The notes below the pieces were generated by a model. That model did not search any database. It was not told where the DNA came from and saw only the letters and a program-made list of their open reading frames with translations. A DNA stretch of 64,000 nt from Aequorivita todarodis. Its GTDB lineage: Bacteria; Bacteroidota; Bacteroidia; Flavobacteriales; Flavobacteriaceae. The first letter of the stretch is position 1. Every line of letters begins with the position of its first letter. The stretch covers positions 5,704 to 69,703 of the forward strand of contig NZ_JAQQTG010000016.1 of NCBI RefSeq assembly GCF_028561335.1, read 5' to 3'. Positions 12,178-17,538 of the stretch are shown here, piece by piece. The position numbers were made by a program, and so were the translations under genes.

Positions 12178-13464
12178 TCATAATCTTCCATCAATACTAT
12201 TTCTTTCAAAAAAGGCCTTAACGTCAAAAACCACTGACGGCGATGCTTTGTGTTTTTCTATATCAAAATCGGAAAACTCTTTATGGCCAACTGCCAATAT
12301 GATAGCTTCATAGTTTCTTTTCAGTTGGGACTCCTCGCTCAGCAAACGCAGTCCAAATTCATTGGAAACTTCCGCAACTTTTGCCCAAGGGTCATAAACA
12401 TCTATATTGAGGTTGTATTTTCGCAATTCCTCAATAACATCTATTACCTTACTATTGCGAATATCGGGACAGTTTTCTTTAAAGGTTATCCCCAAAACAA
12501 GCACATGCCCTCCTTTTACCTTACATTCCTTCTGGATCATTAATTTAATTACCTGCTGGGCCACGTAACTGCCCATGCCGTCGTTCATGCGTCTTCCCGC
12601 CAGGATAATCTCGGGATTATAGCCTTCCTCCTGGGCCTTTTGGGCCAAATAATAGGGATCGACCCCTATACAGTGACCGCCAACGAGGCCTGGGGTAAAC
12701 TTTAAAAAATTCCACTTGGTCGCTGCGGCCTCCAAAACATCCTGGGTATCAATGCCCAAAAGTCTGAAGATTTTGGAAAGCTCGTTCACAAAGGCAATAT
12801 TGATGTCGCGCTGCGAGTTTTCGATAACCTTGGCGGCCTCGGCTACCTTAATAGAAGGTGCCAAATGCGTTCCCGCCGTAATGATGGATGCATACAGCGC
12901 ATCAATATATTTTGCGACTTCGGGCGTGGAGCCAGAGGTTACTTTTAAAATCTTGGTAACGGTATGCTGCTTATCGCCCGGATTGATCCGCTCTGGGGAA
13001 TAGCCCGCGTAGAAATTTTTATTGAATGTGAGCTTTGAATGTTCTTCCAAAATAGGCACACAGATGTCTTCGGTTACGCCCGGATAAACGGTAGATTCAT
13101 AAATAACTATATCGTCCTCCTTCAAAAGTTTTCCAACGGTCTCACTTGCTTTTTGAAGCGGGATAAGTACGGGTTGGTTGTATTTGTTGGTTGGCGTTGG
13201 CACTGTAACGATAAACACGGTCGCGCTGGCCATTTTTGAGGCATCATCGGTAACGGTAAGACCATAATTTTCGGTTTGTTGCAACGCTTTTTTTAGTTCT
13301 TCGGAAGAAAGCTCCAGCGTACTGTCAACTCCTTGCTGCAGTTGCTGAATGCGTTCCGAATTGATATCGAAACCGATTACTTTATATTTTGCTGCAAAGG
13401 CGGCGGCAAGCGGCAAGCCTACATAACCAAGGCCTATTATTGCAATTGTGGGGTTTTGTTTCAT
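12178..13464 (-). CDS. Nucleotide-sugar dehydrogenase (UDP-HexNAc 6-dehydrogenase, TviB/WbpO-like)
   Basis: 428 residues. GLGYVGLP at 11-18 is the N-terminal NAD-binding site, VPTPTNKYNQP near 88-98 and SPERINPGD near 156-164 are family signatures, and VGGHCIGVDPYYL carries the catalytic Cys265. The C-terminal domain has LGITFKENCPDIRNSKV. The enzyme oxidises C6 of a UDP-N-acetylhexosamine twice, giving the uronate. The PYYLAQKA sequence after the cysteine points to the TviB/WbpO group rather than UDP-glucose dehydrogenase. It lies just upstream of the C4-epimerase gene, and together they would provide the acidic sugar of the exported polysaccharide. A TAATTTTG-like -7 box sits at 13518-13525 on the minus strand, without a clear -33 partner. 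Confidence 0.92.
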   Translation of the reverse strand: MKQNPTIAIIGLGYVGLPLAAAFAAKYKVIGFDINSERIQQLQQGVDSTLELSSEELKKALQQTENYGLTVTDDASKMASATVFIVTVPTPTNKYNQPVLIPLQKASETVGKLLKEDDIVIYESTVYPGVTEDICVPILEEHSKLTFNKNFYAGYSPERINPGDKQHTVTKILKVTSGSTPEVAKYIDALYASIITAGTHLAPSIKVAEAAKVIENSQRDINIAFVNELSKIFRLLGIDTQDVLEAAATKWNFLKFTPGLVGGHCIGVDPYYLAQKAQEEGYNPEIILAGRRMNDGMGSYVAQQVIKLMIQKECKVKGGHVLVLGITFKENCPDIRNSKVIDVIEELRKYNLNIDVYDPWAKVAEVSNEFGLRLLSEESQLKRNYEAIILAVGHKEFSDFDIEKHKASPSVVFDVKAFFERNSIDGRL

Positions 13465-13562
13465 CGTTTGATCAAGAGATTGGGGACTGCCAATATGCTG
13501 GCATATTATTTAAGCGGCAAAATTACGGGTTTTAAAGGAAAGTAAGACTGATAAATTTAAAA

Positions 13563-14276
13563 ACATCCCTCCCAGCCTCCCTTCAAAGGGAGGGGCTTGT
13601 TCACGACTAAGTTCATGCTTCTTATTACAAAACAAAAGCCCCCGCTTCGAAGAGGGGGTTGGGGGAGATGTCTTTTGGGTTGGAAGGATGATAACAACTG
13701 AGAAGCATGAGTTACATCCCTCCCAACCTCCCTTCAAAGGGAGGGGCTTGTTCACGACTAAGTTCATGCTTCCTATTACAAAACAAAAGCCCCCGCTTCG
13801 AAGGGGGGGGGTTGGGGGAGATGTCTTTTGGGTTGGAAGGATGATAACAACTGAGAAACGTGAGTCACATCCCTCCCAGCCTCCCTTCAAAGGGAGGAGC
13901 TTGTTTTGAACTACAATCATGATTCTCTGTACAAAATATCTCCCCCGCTTCGAAGAGGTGGTCGGGGGGAGATGTCTTTTGGGTTGGAAGGATGATAACA
14001 ACTGAGAAGCATGAGTTACATCCCTCCCAGCCTCCCTTCAAAGGGAGGAGCTTCTTCACAACTAAGTTCATGCTTCTTATTACAAAACAAAAGCCCCCGC
14101 TTCGAAGAGGGGGTTGGGGGAGATGTCTTTTGGTTGGAATGATGATATCAACTGAGAAGCGCGATCCACATCCCTCCCAGCCTCCCTTCAAAGGGAGGAG
14201 CTTGTTCGCAACTAAATTCATGTTTCTTATTACAAAACAAAAGCCCCCGCTTCGAAGCGGGGGTTGGGCGAGATGT
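13563..14276. repeat. Array of ~151-bp palindromic repeat units, left block (units 1-5)
   Basis: Five units start with ACATCCCTCCC at 13563, 13714, 13867, 14018 and 14168 (period 150-153 bp). Each unit has arm A (starts ACATCCCTCC, contains CCTCCCTTCAAAGGGAGG, ends GCTT), a ~40-bp spacer containing TTCATG(C/T)TTCTTATTA, arm B (starts AAGCCCCCGCTTCGAAG, ends GGGGGAGATGT) and a second ~42-bp spacer. Arm B is an imperfect reverse complement of arm A, so the array alternates inverted arms. Unit 5 ends with arm B directly at the stop codon of the DUF559 gene. Reading frames across the units are artefacts of repetition. Confidence 0.95.
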
Positions 14277-14277
14277 T

Positions 14278-14640
14278 CTAAGTATTTTCCTCGACATAAT
14301 TTCGAATAGTATTTAATACGTCATCCAGATTATATAAAACCTCATCATTTGTGAATCGCAAAAAACGAACTCCTTGTTTTTCCATTTTTCCCTGTCTTTC
14401 TGCATCTTCCAAATAGTTGTTGTCGTGAATGCTTCCATCAATCTCTAATGCAAGCCCAATTTCGTGGCAATAGAAATCAACAATATAGTTTAAGATTGGC
14501 ACCTGTCTATGAAATTCAACTCCCAAGGATTTCTTCCTAATATTTTCCCACATAATTTGCTCGGAAGGTGTCATGTTTTTCCGAAGCTCTCTAGCAATAA
14601 GCTTGAGATGTTTATTGTATGGAATTATTTTATTGGCCAT
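14278..14640 (-). CDS. DUF559 endonuclease-like protein embedded in the repeat array
   Basis: 120 residues from the ATG at 14640 (MANKIIPYNKHLK); a longer in-frame reading from 14811 only translates repeat sequence, so it is rejected. The order RELRKNMTPSEQIMWENIR, then GVEFHRQVPILNYIVDFYC, then LALEIDGSIH matches the DUF559 family, which has a Vsr/PD-(D/E)XK-like nuclease fold with Asp55 and Glu66 as likely catalytic residues. It occupies the place normally held by the second spacer of a repeat unit. Arm B ends one base from its TAG, and arm A begins 18 bp before its ATG, so the gene is bounded by inverted repeats. It may process or spread these repeats, or be a nicking nuclease with an unrelated role. 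Confidence 0.85.
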   Translation of the reverse strand: MANKIIPYNKHLKLIARELRKNMTPSEQIMWENIRKKSLGVEFHRQVPILNYIVDFYCHEIGLALEIDGSIHDNNYLEDAERQGKMEKQGVRFLRFTNDEVLYNLDDVLNTIRNYVEENT

Positions 14641-14658
14641 GTTATAAAGATAAGAAAA

Positions 14659-15069
14659 ACATCCCTCCCAACCTCCCTTCAAAGGGAGGAGCTTGTTCGC
14701 AACTAAATTCATGCTTCTTATTATAAAACAAAAGCCCCCGCTTCGAAGAGGGGGTTGGGGGAGATGTCTTTTGGGTTGGAAGAATGATAACGATGGCGAG
14801 GCATGAGTCACATCCCTCCCAGCCTCCCTTCAAAGGGAGGAGCTTTTTCACAACTAAATTCATGTTTCTTATTACAAAACAAAAGCCCCCGCTTCGAAGA
14901 GGGGGTTTGGGGGAGATGTCTTTTGGTTGGAAGGATGGTAACAACTGAGAAGCGTGAGTTACATCCCTCCCAGCCTCCCTTCAAAGGGAGGGGTTTGTTC
15001 GCAACTAAGTTCATGCTTCTTATTACAAAACAAAAGCCCCCGCTTCGAAGTTGGGGTTTGGGGGAGATG
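14659..15069. repeat. Array of ~151-bp palindromic repeat units, right block (units 6-8)
   Basis: Units begin at 14659, 14810 and 14961, with the same arm A / spacer / arm B / spacer order as the left block. The last arm B ends within a base or two of the stop codon of wzc. The block therefore fills the whole gap between the DUF559 gene and wzc and would be part of any transcript running from wza to the dehydrogenase gene. Confidence 0.95.
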
Positions 15070-17538
15070 TTATTTCCTCCTGAAAATTTTCTTAACCCTA
15101 TCCAAAAGCGTAGGCGGCTTTATTTTTTCGTGATACCCATTGCCATAGCTACCATAACTGCCGTACCCATAGCCGTACCCATAGCCATAGCCATACCCAT
15201 AGCCCCTGCCGCTCTTCTCAACATAACCGTTTAAAACAATGCTGATATGTTTCACTTCGCCCGTTTTATACTTTTCATTGACGAAGGTGAACATATTTTT
15301 ATGGGTATAATTGAAACGGGCCATATATAGCGTGGCGTCCACGTGTTTCATCAGTTCCAAAGAATCCGATACCAGTCCTAAAGGCGGTGAATCAAGGATA
15401 ATATAATCATAGCGCTCCTTGAGTGCATCTATAAGTTCATCCAACTTTTCGCTAATCAATAATTCCGATGGGTTTGGCGGAATGGGTCCGGAAGGAATCA
15501 CATCTAGGTTCGCGATTTCGGTTTTTTGGATTACGGTGTCAATATCTGTCTCATCGATAAGATAGTTGACCACTCCCATGTCATTATTGATATTGAAATC
15601 GCCAAATATTTTAGGTTTTCTAAGGTCGAGACCTACCAAGACGGTCTTCTTCTCGCTCAAAGCAAAAACCGAAGCGAGGTTGATGGAACAAAACGTTTTT
15701 CCCTCCCCACTTACCGAACTGGTTACCAATACCGTTTTGGCGCCCTTAATGCCCTGCTTTTTATAGATGAACTGCAAACTTGAGCGAAGCGCCCTAAAAG
15801 CCTCGGCCATGGCAGACTTTGGTTTGGTAAGAACAACCAGGTTGCTTTCGATAGGGCTTTTTCCGATGATCCCCAACAATGGAATGGAGGTAATGCGGTT
15901 CAAGTCCTTCACATTGCTGATTTTGGTATCGAAAAACACCCGCAGGAAGACAAAGATCAATGGAAAGAAAAAGCCAAGCAAGCCGGCCATCATATAATTC
16001 AACTGCGTATTTGGGCCAATCTGTCCGCCGCCGGTATCTTTTGCGGAGTCAATGACCATCACATCGCTTACGTTGGCGGCTTTCACCAAACCAGCTTCGC
16101 TTCTTTTTGCCAGAAACAGATTGTAGGTACCTTGGCTCAGGTTGTAGCGGCGCTCAATGTTCAAAAGGTCCTGTTGTTCTTTTGGAAGTTTCCGTATTTC
16201 CCCCTCATAACGGCCAATATCGCGATTGATGGAGGCAAGTTCCTGGTTTTTCAAGCTTTTTGAGGAACGTATATTTTCCAACAAAACCGTTTTAACTGCG
16301 TTGATCTGTCGGTCAATATCGTTGAAAATGGGAGCGTCCTCCTTATAGGAATATTGAAATTTATTCCGTTCCTCGGCAAGGGCAACAATCTTTCCTACCC
16401 CGCTCACCACGCTAGCCTCTGAAATACCCGCCACCGATGGTGCGGGAACATCCCTGTAATCGGAACGGTTAATCAGGTAATCCTGAAGGGTGTTGAAGTA
16501 ATTTAATTCGCGATTTACAGATTCCTTCCGCAGGTCGAGTTCGTTCAGTTTCGCGTTGATTTCAGAACCCTCACTTGCCAGATCGAAGATTGCATTCTTG
16601 TTTTTGAATTGGTTAAGCTCGTCCTGCACGTTAGAAAGCTCCTCCGATTTCTGCGCAAGACTACTATCAATAAACTTAATGGTCTTGGTAGCGAAAAGAT
16701 TTTTTCGCTCCAGCATATCTTCGCTCAATACTTCCACGGAAGTATTCAGGTAATCTACCAATTGCGCCTTGTTGTTTCCGGTAAGCCTCATTTTTAATAC
16801 CGAGGAACCCTTGCTTTCGGGATCAACGCGAATGCCCAAATACCGCTTTACTATGCCGTCATAGTTCCTAAAAACAATATAATAAGGCGTTCCCGGTCTT
16901 GACACTACATCTGGATTTGGCATAAAGGTGCCATTAAAAAAGGGCAACTTTATGTGCTCGCCTATTTTAAAATCCTGTGAAAACTCGCCGGCATCCACAA
17001 ATTTCGAGCTGGTTTCCTTGGTGCTATAATTTTGCAGGCGAATGTTTCTGGCCTCTTCAAAGGAAACGCTTAAATTGAAGTTGACCGAATCCTTAAAAAC
17101 AACTTTTATGGGCTGGTTCAGCATTTGCGGTTTGGTGGTGTCCACTTCCACAAAAAATGGGGTCTGTTTGTAAGCGTTTTCCTGTTGGTATTTTCCTTCC
17201 TTCAGATAGTCCATATAATATTGCAGGCGTTCCACAACCTTTTCGTTGTGCGAACGGGACTGCAAGGTAATGACGGCTGTATTCACCTTGTCCGTTGTTC
17301 CTCCCCAATTAAAGGTAAGACTGGTATTGGTGGTAAAAAAGGGGTTTTGGTCGTCCTTGATGGAAACCATATTCTCCATTTGGTAAATGGGCAATTTGCG
17401 GACGTTGATGTAATAGGCAATGGAAAAAGCAATGGCCAAGGAAACCAGAAACAATGGCCAATGGTGCAAAAGCTTAAAGAGAAAACCCTTAAAGTCGAAT
17501 GTGGTATGGGTTTCGTTAATTTCGAATTCCTCGCTCAT
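15070..17538 (-). CDS. wzc: Polysaccharide co-polymerase and BY-type tyrosine autokinase (Wzc-like)
   Basis: 822 residues from the ATG at 17538 (MSEEFEIN); an upstream in-frame TTG-side extension would overlap wza by 47 bp and is rejected. An N-terminal transmembrane segment (HWPLFLVSLAIAFSIAYYI) is followed by a Wzz-type periplasmic part with long coiled coils (~residues 280-480), a second membrane segment (YMMAGLLGFFFPLIFVFL) and the cytosolic kinase. In the kinase, SSVSGEGKT lies near 607-615 (Walker A), LVGLDLRKPK near 634-643 (Walker A') and YIILDSPP near 712-719 (Walker B). The tail at 779-802 is a (Gly-Tyr)n run with ten tyrosines, the autophosphorylation cluster. It controls chain length and export with Wza, four bases downstream of wza. 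Confidence 0.93.
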   Translation of the reverse strand: MSEEFEINETHTTFDFKGFLFKLLHHWPLFLVSLAIAFSIAYYINVRKLPIYQMENMVSIKDDQNPFFTTNTSLTFNWGGTTDKVNTAVITLQSRSHNEKVVERLQYYMDYLKEGKYQQENAYKQTPFFVEVDTTKPQMLNQPIKVVFKDSVNFNLSVSFEEARNIRLQNYSTKETSSKFVDAGEFSQDFKIGEHIKLPFFNGTFMPNPDVVSRPGTPYYIVFRNYDGIVKRYLGIRVDPESKGSSVLKMRLTGNNKAQLVDYLNTSVEVLSEDMLERKNLFATKTIKFIDSSLAQKSEELSNVQDELNQFKNKNAIFDLASEGSEINAKLNELDLRKESVNRELNYFNTLQDYLINRSDYRDVPAPSVAGISEASVVSGVGKIVALAEERNKFQYSYKEDAPIFNDIDRQINAVKTVLLENIRSSKSLKNQELASINRDIGRYEGEIRKLPKEQQDLLNIERRYNLSQGTYNLFLAKRSEAGLVKAANVSDVMVIDSAKDTGGGQIGPNTQLNYMMAGLLGFFFPLIFVFLRVFFDTKISNVKDLNRITSIPLLGIIGKSPIESNLVVLTKPKSAMAEAFRALRSSLQFIYKKQGIKGAKTVLVTSSVSGEGKTFCSINLASVFALSEKKTVLVGLDLRKPKIFGDFNINNDMGVVNYLIDETDIDTVIQKTEIANLDVIPSGPIPPNPSELLISEKLDELIDALKERYDYIILDSPPLGLVSDSLELMKHVDATLYMARFNYTHKNMFTFVNEKYKTGEVKHISIVLNGYVEKSGRGYGYGYGYGYGYGYGSYGSYGNGYHEKIKPPTLLDRVKKIFRRK

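Follow-up and report, generated by a model that had tools for sequence, protein, structure and literature searches.

DUF559 nuclease genes between inverted palindromic arms look like an overlooked kind of selfish DNA element, found between genes and in frame

REPtrons combine REP or BIME repeats with a gene for a RAYT enzyme, and in RAYTs enzyme lineage and repeat sequence co-vary. The locus described here resembles them in its foot-plus-hairpin repeats, in the inverted pairs or arrays that these form around a single nuclease gene, and in the occurrence of both solo and array forms. It differs in that the nuclease is a DUF559 protein and not an HUH/tyrosine transposase, in that the feet are not GTAG, and in that in-frame inserts put the nuclease gene inside host genes. 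Rickettsia palindromic elements (RPEs) are palindromic DNA lying in frame in protein genes and carry no gene of their own; the in-frame inserts reported here share this placement but encode a conserved nuclease. As in MITEs and insertion sequences, terminal inverted repeats are present at DUF559 loci, whereas no transposase of a known insertion-sequence kind was found in the element with Pfam (DUF559 only).

EDxHD homing endonucleases are much larger than the DUF559 protein. With these enzymes, of which I-Bth0305I is one (PMC3943268), the DUF559 elements share a sequence relation between the nucleases (3r3p, 1.1e-6), apparent site specificity, patchy occurrence and a location in conserved genes; they differ in that a search around the gene revealed neither an intron nor an intein domain, that the insert is part of the host frame and that hairpin arms are present. 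The CGTC-tagged REPs, among them RPE-4 and RPE-6 of Rickettsia and dRS3 of Neisseria, "apparently lack a dedicated transposase" (Di Nocera 2013, PMC3733652). According to that paper, which also names the RPEs, they are palindromes with inverted dimers and intragenic copies, as are DUF559 arms. A literature search, with most subscription journals and bioRxiv outside its scope, returned no recognised report of DUF559 together with palindromic repeats.

The array and its nuclease gene

The window, that is, the whole 64-kb stretch of DNA analysed, corresponds to G000:C8:5704-69703 of the 3.33-Mb Aequorivita todarodis genome (G000). It contains the following features in and around the gap between ugd and a wzc-like gene:

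12178-13464, minus strand: ugd (gene name from translation)
13559..15070, no strand: eight-unit array of alternating inverted arms in the ugd-wzc-like intergenic gap
13563..13671, no strand: unit 1 (left arm, spacer 1, right arm)
13714..13824, no strand: unit 2
13867..13975, no strand: unit 3, with a diverged spacer 1
14018..14126, no strand: unit 4
14168..14276, no strand: unit 5, adjoining the stop of the nuclease gene
14237..14276, no strand: right arm beside the DUF559 stop, its foot (TTGGGCGAGATGT) toward the gene
14278..14640, minus strand: DUF559 nuclease gene, 120 aa, at the fifth spacer-2 position (ORF and Pfam)
14657..14694, no strand: left arm beside the DUF559 start, its foot (ACATCCCTCCCA) toward the gene
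14659..14767, no strand: unit 6, adjoining the start of the nuclease gene
14810..14919, no strand: unit 7
14961..15070, no strand: unit 8, whose final base overlaps the wzc-like stop codon
15070-17589, minus strand: wzc-like tyrosine kinase gene (gene name from translation)

The original prediction of an eight-unit inverted-repeat array was borne out by the location of eight left and eight right arms at a spacing of 150-153 bp. Each unit runs from the left arm through spacer 1 (~40 bp) to the right arm, followed by spacer 2 (~42 bp). The left arm consists of a foot, ACATCCCTCCCA[A/G], and a hairpin, CCTCCCTTCAAAGGGAGG, in 8 copies starting at 13563, 13714, 13867, 14018, 14168, 14659, 14810 and 14961. 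The right arm, an imperfect reverse complement of the left, consists of a hairpin and a foot ending in GAGATGT, with copies ending at 13671, 13824, 13975, 14126, 14276, 14767, 14919 and 15070. Successive left arms are 151, 153, 151, 150, 491, 151 and 151 bp apart, the interval of 491 bp being the one that bears the gene. No further copy of the 31-base left arm was found outside the array on either strand of the 64-kb window, allowing up to 6 substitutions. Folded as single-stranded DNA, a 120-nt stretch of left arm, spacer 1 and right arm reached -24.9 kcal/mol (z -3.54), which none of 200 shuffles equalled or bettered, while isolated window arms folded modestly (z -1.71 and -1.57).

The nuclease gene stands in place of a second spacer, as had been proposed. 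Read on the minus strand from an ATG at 14640 to a stop at 14278, it ends 1 base from the right arm that ends at 14276 and starts 18 bp from the left arm at 14659, and the feet of both adjoining arms point toward it. Spacer 2 showed no similarity to the gene above that of shuffles, on which ground we rejected it as a product of internal deletion.

Pfam assigned the gene to DUF559 (E 8.4e-31) and, weakly, to MTES_1575, with no other family in the element, and neither Pfam nor the PDB relatives revealed an HUH/tyrosine transposase (Y1). The solved relatives of the DUF559 profile are 3hrl, an endonuclease-like protein (8.3e-35), and more weakly 3r3p ("Mobile intron protein", 1.1e-6), which we take to be I-Bth0305I. 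E27, Q46, D55, E66, D68, H72 and D79 are invariant among 75 aligned DUF559 sequences, and the conserved residues presumably map onto the letters of EDxHD. All residues of this catalytic set are retained by 116 of 119 copies; an in-frame stop occurs in four of the 119.

PF04480 matches occur at five places in the A. todarodis genome, four of them DUF559 proper and one a Vsr gene (L005). Arms surround all four DUF559 copies, two in arrays and two in frame; the Vsr gene is without arms. The second array copy (L001) lies among unlike arms of the CCCCGGCCCTAAAGGG type, and its upstream arm is missed by the 150-bp parser because it sits just beyond 130 bp. The in-frame copies lie in leuS (L002) and recG (L003), each with arms. 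According to Pfam, the DUF559 domain is flanked within a single open frame by RecG domains in the one case and by LeuRS synthetase and editing domains in the other. At L016:1490-1810 (G000:C49), a gene-free inverted pair of window arms lies ~280 bp apart and forms a candidate non-autonomous element.

Arms around DUF559 genes in other genomes

For a family and a genus sample, 149 and 28 genomes were searched. The stronger rows of the family sample were taken (all to 2.2e-8, and one at 3.7e-4), with 20 Vsr-like rows as controls; the genus sample excludes most Vsr rows as well as a weak one of 35 bits. The flank statistics omit ten loci (L103-L112; partial, split, decayed or without a match), and three of 119 copies had no clean 150-bp flank, so that 116 DUF559 copies were scored. 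Flanks of 150 bp were called inverted repeats at a flank-versus-flank score of at least 26, with windows 750 bp further out as distal controls.

DUF559 genes beyond the window were found to associate with arms, as the original prediction had anticipated: inverted-repeat flanks were present at 39 of the 116 family/genus copies, as against 0/111 distal windows and 0/24 Vsr genes. Random flank pairings from these samples passed the same score in 4.4% of 1000. A strong hairpin within 150 bp on both sides was found at 63/116 copies, compared with 0/111 distal windows and 2/24 Vsr genes.

A scan of a genome collection used a query alignment from Alphaproteobacteria and Deinococcus, and the best 80 of at least 565 relatives were taken, so that the sample is not random; 76 had usable flanks, 73 of which could be used for distal windows. 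Among these best 80 of at least 565, inverted-repeat flanks occurred at 61/76 loci against 2/73 distal windows, and hairpins on both sides at 49/76 against 2/73 (score at least 20) or 56/76 against 11/73 (at least 17). The same best-80 loci are mostly from Proteobacteria by record title; outside that group, two Chloroflexi loci (L302, L343) and one from a Rokubacterium (L318) passed. The Desulfobacterales locus L304 passed the inverted-repeat score as well, the Elusimicrobia locus L352 scored below it and the Phycisphaeraceae locus L290 was left unscored. In a Bacteroidota sample made up of best matches and not of a random draw, the flanks of 25 out of 28 loci could be scored and 23 loci gave distal windows; inverted-repeat flanks were present at 15/25, as against 0/23 distal windows.

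From a plasmid collection, 24 of 39 records were chosen by hand. Loci with an inverted-repeat score of at least 26 numbered 11/15 in a first set, drawn from cyanobacteria, Deinococcus and Alphaproteobacteria (best scores 122, 115, 98 and 97), and 2/9 in a second, 13/24 together. Between D. proteolyticus and Deinococcus NW-56, the gene occupies different junctions of similar hpa gene clusters. On cyanobacterial plasmids (L262-L265), DUF559 genes have DUF1156, DUF499 or PglX genes as neighbours, which resembles a defence context.

A strict foot-plus-hairpin parser found arms on both sides of 28/43 in-frame and 33/78 free copies, on one side only of 12/43 and 27/78, and on neither side of 3/43 and 18/78, respectively. 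Feet point outward on both sides in 24 of the 43 in-frame copies (inward in 3) and inward on both sides in 21 of the 78 free copies (outward in 6).

The arms also co-vary with the DUF559 protein across genomes. Among free copies in different genomes, a flank score of at least 40 was reached by 1% of pairs at a protein score below 0.45, by 9% at 0.45-0.6 and by 29% at 0.6-0.8; windows 600 bp away gave 0, 0 and 5% in the corresponding classes. The class above 0.8 is little informative because its loci are often orthologous (distal 47%), and as the pairs are non-independent we rely on no p-value. DUF559 pairs within one genome at a protein score of 0.3-0.45 shared arms (score at least 40) in 0/19 cases. 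The flank statistics and this co-variation together extend well beyond the window the geometry first proposed for it, comparable to that of REP elements and RAYTs but built on a different nuclease.

At the window site itself, we compared the wzc-ugd gap in 15 ugd orthologues, that of A. todarodis included, reading by eye the units that had diverged. The gap is empty in G157 and G174 and nearly so in G158; it holds one to several units in G149, G154, G168, G169, G161, G162, G173 and G159 (at a contig end), and arrays with DUF559 in G000, G027 and G150. In G170 (L237), the gap upstream of ugd is filled by another palindromic repeat of the TCATTGCGAGGCCGCCGAAGGCGGACGAAGCAATC type, which makes this gap a possible hotspot for such elements.

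Searched for with up to 3 mismatches allowed, the window arms turned up in 7 of the 28 genus genomes, mostly as local arrays. They are present in 4/5 genomes that have the window DUF559 lineage and in 3/23 that do not (Fisher 0.008, a value that ignores relatedness). G154, G162 and G173 carry arms at the window site, and the DUF559 search gave Vsr only, a finding that counts against the original prediction. Each is the one genome of its species, with a completeness of at least 99% for two and 96% for G162. Gene loss probably accounts for these three cases, because G173 also retains the scar of a DUF559 element in recG. The proposal that gene-free units are mobile derivatives of the gene-bearing one is upheld only in part: the units form mostly local arrays, spacer 2 is unlike the gene, and these three genomes have arms without DUF559.

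Escherichia coli offers a further DUF559 gene, ycjD, which lies between sapF and fabI and is annotated in laboratory strains, HB101 and C43(DE3) among them. Places covering at least 80% of the query were found in 3363 of 5426 E. coli genomes. In HB101 (L366:1789-2420), arm-like repeats lie downstream only and the upstream palindrome is a different one; the fetched locus has a flank inverted-repeat score of 20, near the distal value of 16. On these grounds we rejected ycjD as a full member of the element. The median E. coli genome has pieces similar to the downstream ycjD repeats at 13 places, and such pieces are also present in genomes without a full ycjD place. A clean empty site for ycjD was not found in two fetched genomes without a full match, both of which (L367:1-3146 and L369:1-3146) have an RND efflux cluster and a TetR-type regulator upstream of fabI. 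A dispersed E. coli repeat at ypfG-tkt was rejected as a simple insertion, since another strain has a different REP-like repeat there, which indicates replacement.

Copies in frame within host genes

Long frames with DUF559 recur across many genera, at ~1040-1262 aa (leuS, metH), 848-868 aa (recG) and 346-393 aa (hemD). These host labels were given from frame length and flank reading, and Pfam was used to check the hosts of one recG, one leuS, one hemD and three metH proteins. In a tree of 121 DUF559 domains (107 columns, many forks unresolved, L105 and L109 included), the 10 recG, 6 hemD and 5 metH copies each form a single clade (SH-aLRT 99, 99 and 100), and the leuS copies require 3 changes. 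A branch with 100% support sets apart the 78 free copies, which are joined on their side by the hemD copies and a single further in-frame copy.

Further in-frame hosts identified with Pfam are HisD, a PALP enzyme, a GATase_5 (PurL-like) protein and more MetH, as well as HsdR, HsdM, and type ISP and N6/N4 methylases. Host domains stand beside DUF559 in 14 of the 15 in-frame proteins scanned, L375 being DUF559 alone. No intein or splicing (HINT) family was found in Pfam scans of these 15 proteins at E 0.001 or E 1e-8, the latter a threshold that weak splicing-family matches could escape. The restriction-modification proteins that carry DUF559 in frame (HsdR, HsdM, type ISP, methylase; L377, L379, L387, L372, L373) suggest that defence genes may serve as landing sites.

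Several catalytic residues are lost in the leuS copies L105 and L109, both arm-less, yet kept in L143, a leuS copy in frame and arm-less by the parser. L105 and L109 represent a degenerate leuS insert present in two genera, which looks like a domesticated or dying copy. Some leuS genes without DUF559 (L175, L176, L177, L183, L191) have another in-frame extra of 15-16 residues (like SYELGVGETSSHIPHPSSLE) in the same loop, perhaps a second element family.

The genus comparison covered 28 genomes, and recG could be read in 27, where its site is full in 6, whereas 5 retain an arm-like scar or remnant and the other 16 are empty and arm-less. Of the five, G173 and G172 have clear scars, G151 a diverged one, G160 a degenerate one and G164 a short one. 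At the leuS site, DUF559 is present in 8 of the 28 genomes, with at least two different lineages at the one place. On a tree built from the host parts of recG and leuS, with scars scored as empty, the 6 genomes with an occupied recG required 6 changes, as against a mean of 5.6 after shuffling, and the 8 with an occupied leuS required 7.

Between the recG genes of G000 and G159, dS was 0.057 in the element compared with 0.679 in the 3' host part. Identity was 0.92-1.00 over a stretch that begins 120 bp ahead of the insert and reaches 420 bp into it, and 0.87 and 0.85 beyond. Such a pattern is consistent with a recent exchange of the element through recombination. At leuS, the identity of the element is no higher than that of the host. 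Clear co-conversion was confined to the 45 bp that follow the recG insert (0/300 permutations; 30 bins tested) and was absent at leuS; long co-conversion tracts were rejected because the excess is limited to those 45 bp. The recG insert replaced three codons and did not simply interrupt the gene; no target-site duplication was seen there, nor was any excision seen. Copies embedded in recG within the genus have dN/dS values of 0.04-0.16 (0.44 in one pair at very low dS) and are, judging from these ratios, under purifying selection. Taken as sequence comparisons, these data support lateral movement well at recG and less so at leuS.

Explanations for the association

DUF559 genes are bracketed by arms in several phyla, the arms are linked to lineage, the catalytic residues are conserved, the gene inserts in frame into conserved genes, and its presence at a fixed site is patchy and accompanied by scars. 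We consider it fairly probable that arms and gene make up one mobile, selfish unit that acts through the nuclease, a judgement that takes account of the copies at which no arms were detected and of the one-sided repeats in E. coli. Such an element would comprise a nuclease gene between two inverted arms, each with an unpaired C-rich foot and a GC-rich hairpin. The nuclease would recognise the arms, the empty target, or both, and cut there, and repair from an occupied copy would then insert or restore the element by homing-like or REPtron-like copying. Gene-free arm pairs, single arms and tandem arrays would be remnants or non-autonomous products, which could grow and shrink by recombination or replication slippage. 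The in-frame lineages (recG, metH, hemD, leuS) would act like inteins without a splicing domain and may survive because their landing places are tolerant. We read it best as an element that resembles REPtrons or homing genes and uses a DUF559 nuclease; we file it as neither a REPtron nor a homing gene because the test for a RAYT enzyme fails and no intein domain was found.

Among the alternatives, we regard it as unlikely that the gene is a free-standing EDxHD homing endonuclease, which cuts empty alleles and is copied in by repair, with passive arms (terminators or recombination substrates) that the enzyme does not recognise. The sequence relation to the mobile-intron protein 3r3p, the site-specific in-frame lineages with their scattered occupancy and the short local excess identity at recG all favour such an enzyme, and a genome paper assigns a DUF559 gene to the EDxHD homing endonucleases (PMC9403480). 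However, the arms come with the gene at recG, where the 16 empty alleles are arm-less, and they are two-sided in several phyla and co-vary with the protein, which a passive sequence need not do.

Alternatively, the arms could be an independent family of palindromic repeats, spread by other means, into whose palindromes or arrays DUF559 preferentially inserts. The window gene does sit in a spacer of an array that looks pre-existing, relatives have gene-less arrays, and the ycjD-repeat pieces are dispersed in E. coli even where a full ycjD place is missing. We nevertheless hold this to be quite improbable, as each DUF559 lineage tends toward its own arms, less related same-genome pairs share none (0/19 at a score of at least 40), and the empty recG sites contain no palindrome. 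It is very improbable that DUF559 is ordinary genomic furniture, a Vsr-like repair or defence nuclease with chance terminator hairpins in its flanks, despite weak PADLOC matches to restriction and homing nucleases and the copies adjoining DUF1156, DUF499 or PglX genes, because this is mostly refuted by the lineage-specific arm sequences and by arms inside the open frames of recG, leuS and metH, which terminators fail to explain, and because Vsr controls lack paired arms (both hairpins 2/24, inverted repeats 0/24).

Returning to arms and nuclease gene as one mobile unit, a wider form of the proposal is tentative, and we give it just short of an even chance: DUF559 would be a bacteria-wide mobile class, a non-HUH "REPtron" built on a minimal EDxHD/Vsr-like nuclease that recognises palindromic arms and copies them. 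Its non-autonomous arms would account for much of the GC-rich short palindromic repeats in bacterial genomes, and it could enter genes in frame and be translated without splicing. A nuclease that travels with its arms is a testable candidate enzyme for arm families without a known one, and DUF559, a family named as "unknown", would gain a function. In-frame inserts that encode a nuclease in recG, leuS, metH, hemD and other genes, in which no splicing domain was found, would be a new lifestyle of selfish DNA in housekeeping genes. In E. coli, ycjD makes a DUF559 enzyme accessible to study, though its arms are one-sided.

A link of DUF559 to the CGTC repeat family is a lead. The window feet end in ACATC and not in the CGTC tag, and a pattern search found a CGTC-AT hairpin beside DUF559 at 0/76 genome-scan loci (best 80 of at least 565 relatives) and 1/24 plasmid loci, so that the link was for the most part not borne out. 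In the one plasmid locus with this hairpin, from Novosphingobium THN1 (L276:1457, L276:1830), a DUF559 gene lies between inverted, identical CGTC-tagged hairpins.
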